DNA of 36,724 nt. It comes from Bacteroidota bacterium (GTDB taxonomy: Bacteria > Bacteroidota > Bacteroidia > Chitinophagales > UBA10324). Below the pieces are notes generated by a model that saw nothing but the letters and a program-made list of their open reading frames with translations, was not told the DNA's origin and made no database searches. How positions within the stretch are numbered: the first letter of the stretch is position 1; the number at the start of each line of letters is the position of its first letter. Made by a program: the position numbers and the translations under genes. The DNA is taken from NCBI GenBank assembly GCA_014190575.1, contig BJGQ01000032.1, positions 1 to 36,724 on the forward strand, written 5' to 3'. Shown here piece after piece: positions 25,032 through 32,968 of the stretch.

Positions 25032-25067
25032 AAAAGCCGTAATCGAGAGCGATTACGGCTTTTTTTT
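25032..25067 (+). terminator. Perfect 14-bp bidirectional terminator
   Basis: AAAAGCCGTAATCG (25032-25045) and CGATTACGGCTTTT (25050-25063) form a 14-bp perfect stem with an AGAG loop, followed by T on the plus strand and, on the minus strand, by GTTTTTTT. It sits between convergent genes and can serve both. Confidence 0.93.
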
Positions 25068-25127: not shown

Positions 25128-25487
25128 TTATTCATGGCCATCTTTCTTACAACACTTTGGAAGATTATTATATGCTTCGCCATTTGCTTTTACTTCATCC
25201 GCATCATAACCTACGGCACTTATTGCCGTTTTAATTTGCGCTAGTGAAATCAAGGTAGGGTTAAAGACCACAGTTAACTTTTTATTATCCAGGTTCAGGT
25301 CAACAGATTTAATTCCATCTAATATTTTTACAGCTCCTTCAATTTTCTCCTGACATTCTCCGCACATTGCTGATGTTTGAATTACTGCCTTTTCCTTCCC
25401 TCCTATTACTGAAGCAAAAGATTTGTTTGTAAATGCGCTTGTAAATCCTGAAAATAAAAGAGCGATGATGATGATTTTGTTTTTCAT
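25128..25487 (-). CDS. Exported heavy-metal-associated (HMA) domain protein
   Basis: The 119-residue protein has a signal peptide (about 1-26, ending SFAS). One HMA ferredoxin-like domain follows (about 34-100): the metal-binding CxxC is Cys42 and Cys45 in MCGECQEKIEGA, with GIKSVDLNLDNKKLTVVF and a YDAD end. The tail holds a second pair, Cys112-Cys113, with His118 near the C-terminus. Proteins of this type bind Cu(I), Zn or other soft metals; the family usually acts as chaperone or donor in the cytoplasm, so an exported one points to periplasmic metal capture. It is the last gene of a three-gene unit with a TonB receptor and a cysteine-rich protein, 45 bases after the receptor. The metal is inferred, not shown. 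Confidence 0.87.
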   Translation of the reverse strand: MKNKIIIIALLFSGFTSAFTNKSFASVIGGKEKAVIQTSAMCGECQEKIEGAVKILDGIKSVDLNLDNKKLTVVFNPTLISLAQIKTAISAVGYDADEVKANGEAYNNLPKCCKKDGHE

Positions 25488-25532: not shown

Positions 25533-27770
25533 TCACTTCAATGTAAACCGGATTCCTGCGTAAAAAGTTCTTCCAGTTAAAGGCCCCCACACCAATGAAG
25601 AATCAAAATAAGGGCCAAAAGGTTCGCTGGCACTGATAATGGCATCTTTTTGCTGGAAGTCGTTGAGGTTTTCGCCACCAATGTAAAATTCCCATTGGTG
25701 TTTAATGTAGGTAACTTGTCCTAACACTCGAAAGTAAGAAGGTGATTTTTCAGGAATTCTGAATTCTTCAGGATTGCCAACTGTTGAAGGAATTCGTTGA
25801 CTGCCTACCCATTGCACAGTGCCATCAAATTTCCAATGAAGCAATTTTGAATATGCCGCATTAAACAAAGCGCGGTGCAATGGCGAAAAAGCCTTTTGCA
25901 TTAATTGGTCATGCAAAGTTTGCTGAACATCATTGTATTTGTATGCCAATCTGATTTCAAATTTTTCTATCAGAAAAAAGTTGAATGATGCCTGAAAACT
26001 ATTAGCGAATGATTGACCATGTAAATTGTTTACATAAATAAATTGTGGCGACTGATCATAGTCAAGCACTACCTGATTATCAAATTGTGTTCTGTAAAAA
26101 TCAAAACTCAAACTCGCTTCTCTGTTGTTGATGTAAAAATTCTGAGTTGCATTTATCCCGGCGTTCCAGGCGCTTTCTTCTTTTAATTTTTCTGTCACTA
26201 CAATTTTTCTTGATGTTGCCATTATTGCAGGATTTTCGGCAAACAAATTTGTAAACCTGAAACCTCGCCCGCCAGACATGCGCAGTGTTGTGTTTTTAAA
26301 AATTTTATATCGCACATGCAATCGTGGTGTGAGTTGAAATTTTTCATTTACATAATCTGTTCTCAATCCGAGCACCAATGAAAAGTTTTTCAAATCATCG
26401 AAAGTGTATTCATAAAACGCACCGGGAATATTGTTTTTATATCCAGCATAAATCGTATCAAAAACTTCAGTTGAATGATCAGCTAAAAATGTTGCACCTA
26501 GCCTGTACTTCTGTTTTGTGTTACCGATTATTGATTGCCATATAAGATTAGTGTATAAAGTCTGCTCTTTTCCAGAATAATTTTTCAATCCAAAAAAACC
26601 TTTTTGGTCATGATTTACACCTGACAGTTGCAATCCCAAACTCTGGTATTCTTTTGTTGGATTGTAACTGCTTTTATAAAATACTTCTTGCCGGTTTACT
26701 TCCATTTGTGTTTGATATAATTTGCCGCCATTAACTGCACTGCCGGATTGTTGACCGCCATTTCGTAAATCATAAATCCATTTAACACCAAACATCCCTT
26801 CTATGTGTTTTCCTAATGCATATTTCCATCTGTTCATCAACTGAGTCTGTTTGAAATCAGGTTGATCTTTAAAAGTGTCGCCGTTTTTATCTTGTGCATT
26901 TTGCATTCCGCTTCCGCTTGCAAGTAAAAGCGTACTCAGTTTTTTATTAAATCTATGTGCAAATTGCAAATTCAATTCACCTCGTCCATCTGAGTTTCCA
27001 TACATATTTATGAAAAGCCGTTCGGCTGTTTCAGGTTTTTTCAATTCCACATTTATTTGACCGGTGATCGATTCAAAACCATTTGCCACGCTACCAGTTC
27101 CTTTATTTAATTGAATGGATTCAACCCATGGACCGGGAATCCAATTCATTCCATTGTTAATGGCGAGGCCACGAATGGTTGGTAAAACATCAGTCATTGT
27201 TTGAACATAAATACCTGACAAACCAAGCATCTGAATTTTTTTTGCACCAGTTACTGCATCAGTAAACGATACATCCACAGTAGGATTCGATTCAAAACTC
27301 TCAGCCAGATTGCAACAAGCATTTTTTCTTAACTCGGTTGTAGTAAGTACTTCAGTTTTTAGTGGGTTCATGGTACTGATGTATGAATCAGCCTTTTGTC
27401 CCTGCACGATTACTTCTTTTAATGTAACTGTCTTTTTCAGTATCACTTTAATTGAGGTTCCAACAGCCGATACAGTATCGTTAACATATCCGATGTATGA
27501 GATAATAATTTTTTTTGCTGAAGTATCAGGTGGATGAATGTGAAACATTCCTAATGCGTCGGTCGCCGTTCCAACACTTGTTCCTGGAAAAAAAACATTT
27601 GCCCCTATAATTGGAATTTCTTTGCCATCATTGTCGGACTCAACTACGATTCCCATTACATGCTGTGCATGGGAACTGGTAAAAGCACTGACGACTATAA
27701 AAAGTGTTATGATTGTATTTTTCACTATTGAAATTTTGAAATGAATAAATTGTTTTACCCTAACAGGCAT
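25533..27770 (-). CDS. TonB-dependent outer-membrane receptor (putative metal/metallophore transport)
   Basis: The 745-residue protein has a signal peptide ending SSHAQ (about 36). A carboxypeptidase-regulatory-like domain (38-112, PIIGANVFFPGTSVGTATDALG) is followed by a plug domain (about 115-245, LPTIRGLAINNGMNW, VANGFESITGQINVELKKP) and a barrel ending in RTFYAGIRFTLK. Its only two cysteines are adjacent, at 152-153 in KNACCNLAESFE within the plug. Such receptors pull a substrate across the outer membrane with TonB-ExbBD energy. Flanked by a cysteine-rich protein and an HMA protein, a role in copper or related metal handling is the best guess. The start at 27770 is accepted, although a GTG fifteen codons in (VKNTIITLF) would give a tidier signal peptide. 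Confidence 0.88.
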   Translation of the reverse strand: MPVRVKQFIHFKISIVKNTIITLFIVVSAFTSSHAQHVMGIVVESDNDGKEIPIIGANVFFPGTSVGTATDALGMFHIHPPDTSAKKIIISYIGYVNDTVSAVGTSIKVILKKTVTLKEVIVQGQKADSYISTMNPLKTEVLTTTELRKNACCNLAESFESNPTVDVSFTDAVTGAKKIQMLGLSGIYVQTMTDVLPTIRGLAINNGMNWIPGPWVESIQLNKGTGSVANGFESITGQINVELKKPETAERLFINMYGNSDGRGELNLQFAHRFNKKLSTLLLASGSGMQNAQDKNGDTFKDQPDFKQTQLMNRWKYALGKHIEGMFGVKWIYDLRNGGQQSGSAVNGGKLYQTQMEVNRQEVFYKSSYNPTKEYQSLGLQLSGVNHDQKGFFGLKNYSGKEQTLYTNLIWQSIIGNTKQKYRLGATFLADHSTEVFDTIYAGYKNNIPGAFYEYTFDDLKNFSLVLGLRTDYVNEKFQLTPRLHVRYKIFKNTTLRMSGGRGFRFTNLFAENPAIMATSRKIVVTEKLKEESAWNAGINATQNFYINNREASLSFDFYRTQFDNQVVLDYDQSPQFIYVNNLHGQSFANSFQASFNFFLIEKFEIRLAYKYNDVQQTLHDQLMQKAFSPLHRALFNAAYSKLLHWKFDGTVQWVGSQRIPSTVGNPEEFRIPEKSPSYFRVLGQVTYIKHQWEFYIGGENLNDFQQKDAIISASEPFGPYFDSSLVWGPLTGRTFYAGIRFTLK

Positions 27771-27807: not shown

Positions 27808-28161
27808 TCAAATTCGGTAAACCTGCAAAAAAGAAATATAATTTGAAGATAACGGTGGCGATGAATCAGACGATAATTCATTTAACAAACCAATATCATA
27901 CTTGCTTATAAAATGATTCGAATTCAGTAGCGAAATAACAATGCTTGAGACTTCTGCTTTTTGAATAAGCGATTGTGTATAATCGTTCGTAAGTCGATTA
28001 TAAATAAAAATGGTTTTACAGCATTTACAATCCCGTTTTCCGCTGCACTCGCTATGCCCATCGCACTTATTACTTTTGCAACCATGCAAAGTAAGACTGA
28101 CACCCGTTGTGGCAACAGAAAAAACAAGTAGAAAAAAAATTGTTAAAACTCTTTTAATCAC
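27808..28161 (-). CDS. Cysteine-rich exported small protein, HYC_CC_PP-like
   Basis: The 117-residue protein starts with GTG (28161) and a signal/hydrophobic segment (MIKRVLTIFFLLVFSVATTG). Six cysteines then cluster at 28, 33, 39, 45, 47 and 48, including LHGCKSNKC and KCCKT. A Pro-Pro at 102-103 (SDSSPPLSSNY) sits before the C-terminal segment. An H-x-C, CC and PP pattern is what defines the HYC_CC_PP family of small Bacteroidota proteins; here the first motif is HGC rather than HYC. It is the first gene of a unit with the TonB receptor (37 bases downstream) and the HMA protein. The Cys cluster and context suggest metal binding in the periplasm. A TAnnTTTG-like motif (TAATTTTG, minus strand, 28166-28173) lies directly upstream, close enough to raise the possibility of a later start. 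Confidence 0.68.
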   Translation of the reverse strand: MIKRVLTIFFLLVFSVATTGVSLTLHGCKSNKCDGHSECSGKRDCKCCKTIFIYNRLTNDYTQSLIQKAEVSSIVISLLNSNHFISKYDIGLLNELSSDSSPPLSSNYISFLQVYRI

Positions 28162-29415: not shown

Positions 29416-32400
29416 CTATTGTACAATCAGTTTCTGAACTGATAGTATTTCGTTGTTGCTTATGATACTTATGAAATAAATTCCCTTCGGGAAAGATTTC
29501 AGGTTTAAGATTTTAGAATTTTGATTTATTGCGTCCACCATTAATTTTTGTCCGAGTGTATTTGCAATTTCTATTCTGCAATTTTCACATGGTTGTGTAA
29601 GTTCAACAGTAATGCTTTCGCTTGTTGGGTTCGGATAAATGTGAACTTCATTAGCACCGAACAGCGGAGTAATGCCTAAATTATAATCAATGGTATTCAG
29701 CGTAGTTCCGGTGCGAACAGGTGCATTCATATCAAAATAAATATCAGCGAAATTGTTTATCACAGCTCCGTCGGCAATGGTTGATTTTGGTGAAATGGTG
29801 TACTTCACAAAACCCATGCTTCCAATGTAATCAGCACCGCTATCTGGCAACATGATGTTGTTGTAGAAGAATGTAATGATGCCGGTAACAGTATCCAACT
29901 CACTCACCATCGGGTGGCTATAAGAAAGAATGTTAATGCTTGTCCAATCCAATTCGCTGCTCAGTGTATCAATCAACACCACATTCATGGCAGGTGCATT
30001 ACCTGTGTTCTGGAAATGGATCGTGTAATCTAACCGCTGGTCAGCTTGTATGAATCCGGGAGCACCAACACCTGATGGAGAAACCTGCTTGTCATTCGGA
30101 TCCCAGCTTGAAGTAGCTATCTGATGTAGTGTATCAATGTTGTTTGATGGAACTGCATCGCCTGCAATCGGATTTACAAATACTGCATTGAAAGCAGCAT
30201 CGCCTGCAACAACAGTGCAACTGGTTGTGAAATCAACCCATATCCATCCTGAAACGCCGGGTTGAACGATACCAACATTCCAAGTAATGATGTGAGCAAC
30301 AGTATCAATTGTAGTGTAAGGCGGTGATGAATAATCAAAATACAATTGCGGATCGTAATTCATAGATACAGTTGCATTAACTGGAACACTTCCGGCATTG
30401 TAATAAGAGATATTGTACCACGCAGGGAAGCATGGAGTAACTGTAGTGCAGGTTGAAAGAGAGATAACCATGTTCTGTACACCGGGAGGATAATTTAATC
30501 CGAAATCATTTCCGCCATAAATCTGTCCGACGGCGGCAGCATTAACTGTATAGTTTCCGGCTGCAGGAACTGTTAATGTTGCGCTTGCAGGTATTATCCA
30601 TAATTCAACATTGTAAGTTCCGACCGGAACTGTTACTACATAAACTCCATTGACATCGGTCATTGCCCAGTACCAACCAATCTCAACCCAGATATTTGCT
30701 ATTCCATTTTCACCCGCTTCCTGCATACCATTGCTGTTTGTATCGTTGAATACAACACCTGTAATGGTAGTTTGATTTGATTGCAATCCGAAATTCAGAT
30801 TTGAAAGTATGGTTCCTCCTGCCACAGTTACAGTATATGATGTTGGACTAACCGGGAAAGTTTGTGTCCATGTTGAAGTTACATACACTTCAACATTCCA
30901 TGTTCCATCAGCTACATAAATTCCATAAAGACCATTTGGGTCAGTCAAAATCCACTGCCCTGCCACATTCACATAAATGTTCGGAAGTCCGAGTTCACCT
31001 GCATCCTGAATTCCATTGCCATTGGCATCATTGAACACAATTCCTGAAAGAAAATTATTGGTAATGAAATTTGCCGGAACCTGAAACCATGCACTGTCAT
31101 AACATCCGGTTGCACTATCAGTTGCCCAGAATGTATAATAATACACTCCTGATGTTGCGAGTGTATCTTCAACATTTAGTGAGGTAGTATTCATTCCTGA
31201 TGAAAGATACCAACCGAATGAAGTATAGTTGCCGGTGATGGTTCCTTGTAATGAAACAATGTTTCCGTTTAAAGTATAAGTTGCGGAGGCGCTTAAGCCG
31301 CATGCATAAATGCTTTGACAAAGTGTATCGTAACAATTATTTGCAATATCACTTATGTAAAGGCAAATGGTATAATTACCCGCAACGGCATAATGATGTC
31401 CGAAATAACTTTGCATGGTATTGTTTGTTGCATTGGTTCCATCGCCAAAATCCCAGTAGTATGTAGCATTAATTCCAGCTTGTGAATTGTTATAGATGTA
31501 AATTGAATCATTGTATGAATAAAGATAAAAATTAGCCATGCACGATAAAGGCTGAACCACCATTGTAAAACAATTAGTAGATACACAACCATTGGCATCG
31601 GTAATGGTGCAGCAGGCTATGTAAGTTCCAGCTTGTGAATAGGAAGCGCAAGCAACTGACTGATTGTATCCACAAGTAGAAATTCCTCCATTAATGTTCC
31701 ATGAATAAGAATATGGAGCTGTTCCGCCAACGGCTGCTGCGTATAAATTCCAAGTGTTGTTTGAAGTCTGGCTTCCGGTTACAGCAGTACTAAAACCAGT
31801 ACAATTAAATGAACCACCGCCAAGGCTGAAAGTATAGCAAAGAGAATCGTAACAATTCCATCCGGAATCATATACAGTTAGGCAAACAGTATTAGTGCTT
31901 GGATAAGGATATTGAACTGTGGTAATGGAAGTATTAGAAGAATTTGGATTTCCACTGGGTATGTACCAGTAATAATTATATGGAGCATTGCCTCCGGTAG
32001 CATTGCCATATAGCACAACAATTCCACTTGAGGCATTTGTGGTATCAATTGTTATAGCAGCCTGAACGCCACCAATATTCTGAACAACAAAAGTGCTCCA
32101 TGCAGTACAACCTCCAGCATCGGTAACGATTACATTGTAAGTACCATTACATAAATTACTAATGGATTGTGTGTTTCCTCCATTGGTCCATTGATAAGTG
32201 TATGGAGGTGCTCCGCCGGTTACAAAGGCAGTTATTGCACCATCGCACATTCCACAGTTGCTTCCGGTTACATTACCGGTAATAGCGATGTTGCATCCTA
32301 CGGCATTTGTTACAACTACATAATCATAAATTGTATCGGTACAACCGTTAGAATTATACACGGTGAGCATAACCCCATAAGTATTGTTGTTTGCATAAGT

Positions 32401-32898
32401 ATGAGTTGGGTTTTGCAAATTTGAAGTTGTCCCATCGCCGAAGGACCATGACCAGTAAGTGATGGTTCCACCACCATTATCAATAGTGGCATCGGTGAAC
32501 ATTACATTTCCATTTCCCATATTCATAAAAGTGAATTGAGGTGTGATATCGCAAATGGTTGCGCTTACATTGATGTTTTGGCAAGTTTGATTGATGCAAC
32601 CGGAACCAGAATCGCTCGCGTAAACACAACAATTGTAAGCCCCGACGAATGAATAGGTATGAGTTACAGTCGGGTTCATGGTGTATAACTGATTACCATC
32701 GCCGAAATCGAACCAGTACCAAACATTTCCGGTGGCAGGTGTAAGTGTTCCGGTAAATACATAAATGCCTGATTGCGGATTAGTGTAGGATAAGCCAGCA
32801 GTGCACTGTGCATTTACTTTTCCGGAAGTGATAAATAAAAAGCAGAATACAAAGAAGACTGTTAAGCTTTTGCTGATAGATTTAATTTTTGATCCCAT
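29416..32898 (-). CDS. Large secreted PKD/SprB/SdrD-like repeat protein with T9SS sorting domain
   Basis: ATG at 32898 is chosen because it gives MGSKIKSISKSLTVFFVFCF, a normal signal peptide; an in-frame ATG at 32967 would put 23 extra residues in front. The 1160-residue protein then holds PKD domains near 37-115, 120-197 and 455-530 (WFDFGDGNQ, WSFGDGTTS, YWDFGDGTN) and a SprB repeat near 205-265 (GGAPPYTYQWTNGGNTQSI). Two SdrD B-like repeats lie at about 616-705 and 712-802 (VFNDANGNGIQDAGELG, VFNDTNSNGMQEAGENG). A conserved domain of the DUF7619 type follows (about 930-1070, SSWDPNDKQVSPSG), then a T9SS domain (IYPNPTSES, KGIYFISI). It is rich in Cys, Tyr, Trp and Asn. It is probably a cell-surface adhesin or gliding/matrix protein; no enzyme motif is seen. 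Confidence 0.88.
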   Translation of the reverse strand: MGSKIKSISKSLTVFFVFCFLFITSGKVNAQCTAGLSYTNPQSGIYVFTGTLTPATGNVWYWFDFGDGNQLYTMNPTVTHTYSFVGAYNCCVYASDSGSGCINQTCQNINVSATICDITPQFTFMNMGNGNVMFTDATIDNGGGTITYWSWSFGDGTTSNLQNPTHTYANNNTYGVMLTVYNSNGCTDTIYDYVVVTNAVGCNIAITGNVTGSNCGMCDGAITAFVTGGAPPYTYQWTNGGNTQSISNLCNGTYNVIVTDAGGCTAWSTFVVQNIGGVQAAITIDTTNASSGIVVLYGNATGGNAPYNYYWYIPSGNPNSSNTSITTVQYPYPSTNTVCLTVYDSGWNCYDSLCYTFSLGGGSFNCTGFSTAVTGSQTSNNTWNLYAAAVGGTAPYSYSWNINGGISTCGYNQSVACASYSQAGTYIACCTITDANGCVSTNCFTMVVQPLSCMANFYLYSYNDSIYIYNNSQAGINATYYWDFGDGTNATNNTMQSYFGHHYAVAGNYTICLYISDIANNCYDTLCQSIYACGLSASATYTLNGNIVSLQGTITGNYTSFGWYLSSGMNTTSLNVEDTLATSGVYYYTFWATDSATGCYDSAWFQVPANFITNNFLSGIVFNDANGNGIQDAGELGLPNIYVNVAGQWILTDPNGLYGIYVADGTWNVEVYVTSTWTQTFPVSPTSYTVTVAGGTILSNLNFGLQSNQTTITGVVFNDTNSNGMQEAGENGIANIWVEIGWYWAMTDVNGVYVVTVPVGTYNVELWIIPASATLTVPAAGNYTVNAAAVGQIYGGNDFGLNYPPGVQNMVISLSTCTTVTPCFPAWYNISYYNAGSVPVNATVSMNYDPQLYFDYSSPPYTTIDTVAHIITWNVGIVQPGVSGWIWVDFTTSCTVVAGDAAFNAVFVNPIAGDAVPSNNIDTLHQIATSSWDPNDKQVSPSGVGAPGFIQADQRLDYTIHFQNTGNAPAMNVVLIDTLSSELDWTSINILSYSHPMVSELDTVTGIITFFYNNIMLPDSGADYIGSMGFVKYTISPKSTIADGAVINNFADIYFDMNAPVRTGTTLNTIDYNLGITPLFGANEVHIYPNPTSESITVELTQPCENCRIEIANTLGQKLMVDAINQNSKILNLKSFPKGIYFISIISNNEILSVQKLIVQ

Positions 32899-32935
32899 GT
32901 TTTTATGTTTTGTGGGGTGAGGATTTATTTCGAGG

Positions 32936-32968
32936 TAAATATAACACCACACATTTTCGAAACGCAAA
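32936..32968 (-). promoter_or_regulatory. Candidate promoter of the large T9SS surface protein gene
   Basis: On the minus strand TTTG (32965-32968) and TATATTTA (32936-32943, one mismatch to TAnnTTTG) are 21 bases apart, near the usual Bacteroidota -33/-7 spacing, 37 bases before the chosen ATG. The position supports the start at 32898 rather than 32967. Confidence 0.38.

Follow-up and report, generated by a model that had tools for sequence, protein, structure and literature searches.

A family of Bacteroidota TonB-dependent receptors with an invariant vicinal cysteine pair in the plug, a probable entry path for copper or a related metal

A pair of adjacent cysteines in the plug domain, as the constant feature of a family of Bacteroidota TonB-dependent receptors (clade A), was present in 149 of 149 homologues reaching the site, and the motif occurred in 0 of 49 more distant receptors. 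A preliminary description of one such receptor, encoded in a window of 36,724 nucleotides (the whole stretch of DNA that was analysed), had named the pair as a feature of related Bacteroidota receptors, and these counts bear it out; that the pair (CC) is a family feature, unlikely to have arisen by chance, is strongly supported by the sequence comparison. The family is widespread in Bacteroidota, distinct from OprC and CrtA, and apparently undescribed. Its hosts probably use it to take up copper or a similar metal: the link to a soft metal comes from the gene neighbourhood, and the pair itself may bind the metal.

Table 1. Features of the three-gene unit and its surroundings (positions in the window)
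Feature	Position	Strand	Evidence
Cys-rich small protein, 117 aa, signal-like N terminus (by eye), distant HYC_CC_PP relative	27808..28161	-	32 bits, profile built without its genus
Small protein, invariant CC codons, Cys47-Cys48	28018..28023	-	Alignment and DNA
TonB-dependent receptor, 745 aa	25533..27770	-	PF00593 69.1 bits (cut-off 27); PF13715 45.9 (cut-off 32.2)
Receptor, CarboxypepD_reg-like N-terminal domain, residues 50-122	27405..27623	-	Pfam match
Receptor, codons of Cys152-Cys153, vicinal plug pair	27312..27317	-	Coordinates from reading frame
Receptor, plug domain, residues 136-237	27060..27365	-	PF07715 Plug 23.4 against cut-off 23.9, slightly under; AF2 model
Receptor, beta-barrel, residues 270-702 (Pfam match)	25665..26963	-	Pfam and AF2 model
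HMA (metallochaperone-like) protein, 119 aa, signal-like N terminus (by eye)	25128..25487	-	PF00403 49.3 bits (cut-off 24.8), E 6e-13
HMA protein, CxxC metal-site codons, Cys42 and Cys45	25353..25364	-	Sequence
HMA protein, tail CC codons, Cys112-Cys113	25149..25154	-	Sequence
Terminator-like hairpin, 14 pairs, T run on both strands	25032..25063	.	3' of the three-gene unit and of the convergent gene

The window receptor is encoded in the middle of a three-gene unit lying entirely on the minus strand (Table 1), separated by 37 nt from the gene for the Cys-rich small protein and by 45 nt from the HMA gene. These are the neighbours that had been described as forming an operon with it, export of both small proteins being judged by eye from their N termini; promoter-like sites were not above those in shuffled sequence. 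The PF00593 match above the cut-off and the AF2 model (mean pLDDT 92.7), which has the predicted fold of a TonB-dependent transporter, identify the protein as a member of that class. In a structure search the model resembled Cir, BtuB and OprC, and a VIA-align search gave nothing closer than general TonB receptors among the relatives listed. The family consensus contains a LxEVxV motif ahead of the plug, a candidate TonB box. The translation of 745 aa contains exactly two cysteines, residues 152 and 153 within KNACCNLAESFE, as had been noted. The statement that the pair stands alone in an otherwise Cys-free receptor holds for this protein but extends to only 51 of 110 unfused relatives, in which additional cysteines are scattered. 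The genome of the window carries a single copy of the receptor, and its remaining matches are distant (next E 2e-11). Elsewhere in the window, positions 29416-32967 (minus strand) encode a protein of 1183 aa that contains PKD-like repeats and ends in a sorting-like tail, by eye probably a secreted surface protein.

The homologues were collected with the whole receptor as query against 60 relatives and 395 phylum genomes, and loci were fetched by score and not by motif. Every fetched receptor that reaches the site and scores about 250 bits or higher in blastp carries CC; the fragments L272 and L164 score lower but carry it too. The 149 comprise a 122-row alignment, 26 added rows, of which L272 is one, and L013. 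The sequence of L013 starts at residue 152, exactly at the pair; it was left out of the 122 and added later. Also outside the 122 rows are L037 (same locus as L099) and L164, a fragment with CC that was not counted. The fetched set does not include another copy from the same genus (G003:C45) or the match in G019, which is a C-terminal fragment. The 49 outgroup receptors consist of 33 clade-B members, L285, L286, 12 others, and L004 and L166, the last two being counted solely there. Searching for ACC[NSD]L[SA]E[SC]F gave at least 591 matches, and all matches listed encode relatives; 80 named loci were found by this pattern alone and are thus usable for neighbours only, not for CC conservation. 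At E <= 1e-70 the receptor family was found in about 105 of the 395 sampled phylum genomes, the window's own genome included. In L272 (G011:C4) the receptor gene is apparently broken into separate pieces with an in-frame stop, and an HMA gene is still nearby.

Median pairwise identity within clade A, computed from a sample of half the rows, is 36%. In the 122 rows 18 positions are invariant, and two of these are Cys152 and Cys153. Apart from this pair, no conserved Cys column occurs in these rows. In a FastTree tree of 192 rows, built with the pair masked, the pair changed state once. The Met-containing stretch beside the pair, to which the preliminary description had also drawn attention, proved not to be a family feature: Met is found at position 181 in 75 of 122 members, at 192 in 17 and at 208 in 18. 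Histidines are common in the barrel at positions 285, 387, 420, 474, 485 and 632, each in 79-108 of the 122 members, although in the window receptor those at 285, 420 and 474 are replaced by other residues. With a fully conserved pair, no further Cys column, partly conserved Met and barrel His that could form a substrate site, the pair might serve plug packing or assembly, while an organic or metal-chelate substrate would be recognised by the barrel and apical loops only. We consider such a structural or folding role quite unlikely, since no such motif was seen in the 49 other receptors read and the repeated linkage or fusion to an HMA protein with its own CC tail (below) points to thiol-metal chemistry.

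By AF2 secondary structure, the pair is predicted to lie in the loop 148-153, ahead of the plug helix 155-161. The family profile aligns it with KPVQNL of Cir, a weak match (domain E 0.0055), and we take it to correspond to about Ser39-Thr40 of BtuB. In excerpts of a study of BtuB, the plug half formed by residues 23-73 is described as mechanically weak, unfolding under the pull of TonB, and plug disulfides are described as altering this unfolding (PMC5413942). By analogy, the pair would belong to the weak, TonB-unfolded half of the plug. A third cysteine occurs at position 158 in 6 of 122 members. This variant, in which the third Cys lies in the helix (CCDLxGCF in most), was seen in L114, L116, L120, L121, L122 and L161, and also in L251 and L253; its partners are YHS-like proteins (L116, L121) or a degenerate one-Cys HMA (L114, L120).

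The sister clade B (L130-L159, L162, L163, L165) has no plug CC and carries instead cysteines at columns 171 and 174 in 33 of 33 members, a CxxC about 20 residues past the CC site, in the loop after the next strand; the one exception with CC, L135, has it in an N-terminal signal-like stretch. The neighbours differ as well. A DtxR-type regulator (one member scanned, best match the MntR model) lies beside 15 group-B loci and 1 group-A locus, a thioredoxin-like cluster (one member scanned) was found at 17 of 36 group-B against 7 of 124 group-A loci, and a ZIP-like transporter, recognised by eye, lies beside 4 group-B loci. Two related clades have thus each fixed a plug pair of their own, mostly in different company, and clade B is possibly a manganese or iron receptor. 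It was also considered that the CC pair acts as a redox switch, in which a vicinal disulfide locks or frees the weak part of the plug, so that import follows the redox state of the envelope and no metal is bound at CC. The invariant adjacent cysteines directly before the plug helix, the invariant CxxC and thioredoxin-like neighbours of clade B, and the effect of plug disulfides in BtuB are consistent with such a switch. It is nevertheless somewhat unlikely, because the CC clade is usually accompanied by HMA and HYC-type proteins and rarely by thioredoxin-like ones, and because the third Cys at 158 would be superfluous for a simple vicinal disulfide. Among the distant receptors, L166 (G059:C1) is Cys-free; close to it, the opposite strand encodes a heavy-metal-binding (HMBD) protein and a P-type ATPase bearing a CPH motif.

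An HMA gene was adjacent (within 1.5 kb, same strand) or fused at 101 of the 149 CC loci, namely 85 of the 122 clade-A members, 15 of the 26 added rows and L013, against 0 of the 49 others, which include 0 of 33 clade-B and 0 of 14 distant receptors. The comparison of 85/122 with 0/33 gave a Fisher p of 1.8e-14 with kinship ignored; as CC traces to a single change, the CC-HMA association rests on few independent events. The preliminary description had proposed scoring the pair against HMA co-occurrence in aligned homologues, and the association it anticipated was thus recovered; the contrary case it named, a receptor beside an HMA gene without CC, was sought and not found among the loci read. 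An HMA gene was also adjacent or fused in 69 of the 80 named loci. In fusions, one or two HMA domains stand N-terminal to the receptor (12 of 122 members, 24 of 80 named loci); two domains fused ahead of the receptor were seen in L098, L100, L101, L104, L106, L112 and L266 (family f24). Among 224 clade-A rows, HMA within 700 nt was downstream in 77, upstream in 45, fused in 38, on both sides in 4 and absent in 60, this last class including some loci cut by contig ends. On the tree of these rows the arrangement changed at least 34 times and the fusion state at least 5 times.

The HMA protein of the window has the PF00403 domain, above the cut-off, and its CxxC. It is like the CopZ/MerP HMA proteins, but differs from them by its conserved CC tail and by an N terminus resembling a signal sequence. 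Of 127 stand-alone HMA neighbours (one per locus), 119 have a CC beyond residue 60, and in 38 of 38 fusions CC lies in or near the HMA part. The C-terminal tail often reads AYxxLPxCC and is outside the HMA domain. In 37 genomes the CC receptor stands without an HMA gene next to it; a good HMA homologue was found elsewhere in 24 of them (E <= 1e-18), only weak matches in 5 and none at 1e-6 in 8. At 5 of the 37 clade-A loci that lack adjacent HMA, the flank is under 700 nt. In G026 the good homologue lies beside its other CC receptor, and such a homologue is also present in 2 of 3 control genomes lacking the receptor. Since CC is kept where no HMA partner was found at 1e-6, as in G006 and G013 (99% complete), the pair does not depend on the HMA protein. 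Loci without adjacent HMA may have a YHS metal protein (L061, L116) or a degenerate HMA (L114).

The upstream small protein gave no match at 1e-3 to the NCBIfam model HYC_CC_PP (NF047658), and its counterparts L041, L042 and L018 pass the cut-off of that model (28 bits). It clusters with HYC_CC_PP proteins, in which Cys28, Cys47 and Cys48 are invariant (67 rows). An HYC-type protein is encoded within 1.5 kb at 66 of 80 named loci. At the 37 loci without adjacent HMA, it is present in 25, and either it or another Cys-rich neighbour in 32; neither was found at L092, L036, L091, L107 and L161. HYC_CC_PP proteins also occur in receptor-less genomes and elsewhere in the window's genome, and are therefore no exclusive partner. 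One of them, above the family cut-off, is encoded at G000:C5:361-738 in the window's genome, away from the receptor. The structure prediction for the small protein (pLDDT 69.9) was too low for a fold search, and the name HYC_CC_PP was not found in the open-licence papers searched.

The identity of the metal was approached through the neighbouring genes. The P-type ATPases near L191, L175, L095 and L076 score 577-615 bits with the Cu subfamily model (cut-off 397) and less, 389-414 bits, with the Cd model (cut-off 313.5). Such neighbours are few, at 4 of 80 named loci and 2 in another count of clade-A loci, and the non-CC receptor L166 has an ATPase close by as well. L192 is accompanied by a multicopper oxidase (PF07732, PF07731 and PF00394, all above cut-off), a DUF3347 protein and an HMA-MauE protein. 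AraC-type regulators adjoin L050 and L214, and the regulator at L050 shows, over its N-terminal 61 residues, a weak match to the copper-chaperone CopZ model (E 3.9e-5). Copper is thus favoured on the basis of ATPase and multicopper oxidase neighbours, which occur in a minority of loci, and, as far as gene context can tell, a soft-metal role for the family with copper as the favoured ion is likely. The preliminary description had suggested a soft-metal gate or sensor; the soft-metal part agrees with the gene neighbourhood, but the Met residues invoked with it are not conserved. Another soft metal, e.g., zinc, cadmium, mercury or silver, might be carried instead, as HMA domains are used for several metals, the HMA protein of the window has sub-cut-off matches to the metal-binding models MerTP and UxxU, and the neighbouring ATPases are above the Cd-family cut-off too. 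With the higher Cu scores of all four scanned ATPases and the multicopper oxidase at L192, this seems improbable. Three receptor genomes (G291, G400, G404) gave no COX1 match, so the family is unlikely to serve oxidase copper supply alone; co-occurrence with COX1 was uninformative as a clue, 372 of the 395 genomes having COX1.

Taken as a whole, the explanation that we put forward is a Bacteroidota soft-metal receptor, probably for copper ion or a labile chelate, whose plug thiols help to pass the metal to a chaperone; its chances appear evenly balanced, and about the same may be said of the proposal that CC is a direct metal ligand. In this mechanism, the pull of TonB would draw the N-terminal half of the plug, together with CC, toward the periplasm, the CC thiolates would hold or receive the metal in transit, and the metal would be handed from CC to the HMA domain, so that copper would never be free in the periplasm. 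The hand-off to HMA by plug extraction is a tentative element. Equally tentative is its extension to a relay of vicinal-Cys thiols that would move Cu(I) inward from the plug CC to the CxxC and tail CC of the HMA protein, with HYC_CC_PP as a further station; the plug CC would enter the periplasm as TonB unfolds the weak half, and the fused receptors would have a tethered chaperone. If the relay is true, an outer-membrane importer would pass an ion directly to a chaperone with no release. Outer-membrane copper import has been described for few receptors, and the two-residue hallmark, together with the occasionally fused chaperone, offers a clean test of direct hand-off of an ionic metal by TonB receptors. 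A function would also be suggested for the HYC_CC_PP proteins, whose family name is merely descriptive.

Among the titles and abstract openings of open-licence literature, no paper evidently on the CC receptor family was found, and the family was compared with several known types. SusC/RagA receptors of Bacteroidota have the same CarboxypepD_reg-like N-terminal domain before plug and barrel but are a separate family, for which we know of no CC motif or HMA partner. The FCYXU type (NF049945), listed among predicted selenoproteins in the excerpts available (PMC13188914, PMC12013277), likewise has a thiol/selenol pair in a TonB receptor, but as CxxU rather than CC. Its model did not match the window receptor and matched 1 of 48 clade-A members (E 4e-4); the match of the clade-B receptor L141 (E 5.8e-16) is far below the cut-off. 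CrtA (BfrG) of Proteobacteria is a copper-linked TonB-dependent receptor, as is proposed for the CC family. Its orthologues, in the part of the source available, have no conserved Cys or Met, possess an invariant His and import chelated copper (PMC12914433); the CC family, with two invariant Cys, lies outside CrtA in this respect.

OprC/NosA (TIGR01778) is likewise TonB-dependent, OprC being a copper receptor with a plug Cys ligand, and its structure 6z8q matches the fold of the window receptor model (Z 30.0, rmsd 3.0, 539 aligned). The OprC site, as given in the excerpt available, combines a plug CxxxM with a barrel HxM (PMC8610252); no such CxxxM/HxM site occurs in the CC family. TIGR01778 gave no match to the window receptor at 1e-3, matched 1 of 48 clade-A members (E 1.8e-4) and found nothing in the window's genome at 1e-40. 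In a survey of Bizionia argentinensis, as far as its excerpt goes, copper uptake was assigned to an OprC-like receptor, and other TonB proteins were without the motif (PMC11213822). Separate OprC-like receptors were also identified here in Bacteroidota (L291-L296), none of which reaches the family cut-off; searched by pattern, 5 of the 6 have CxxxM and all 6 an HxM. They occur in 5 of 60 genomes with the CC receptor against 9 of 37 others (order plus class; p 0.039, kinship ignored), and within family f25 in 4 of 30 receptor genomes against 4 of 10 others (p 0.089, kinship ignored), which is only suggestive of mutual exclusion between the two receptor types.
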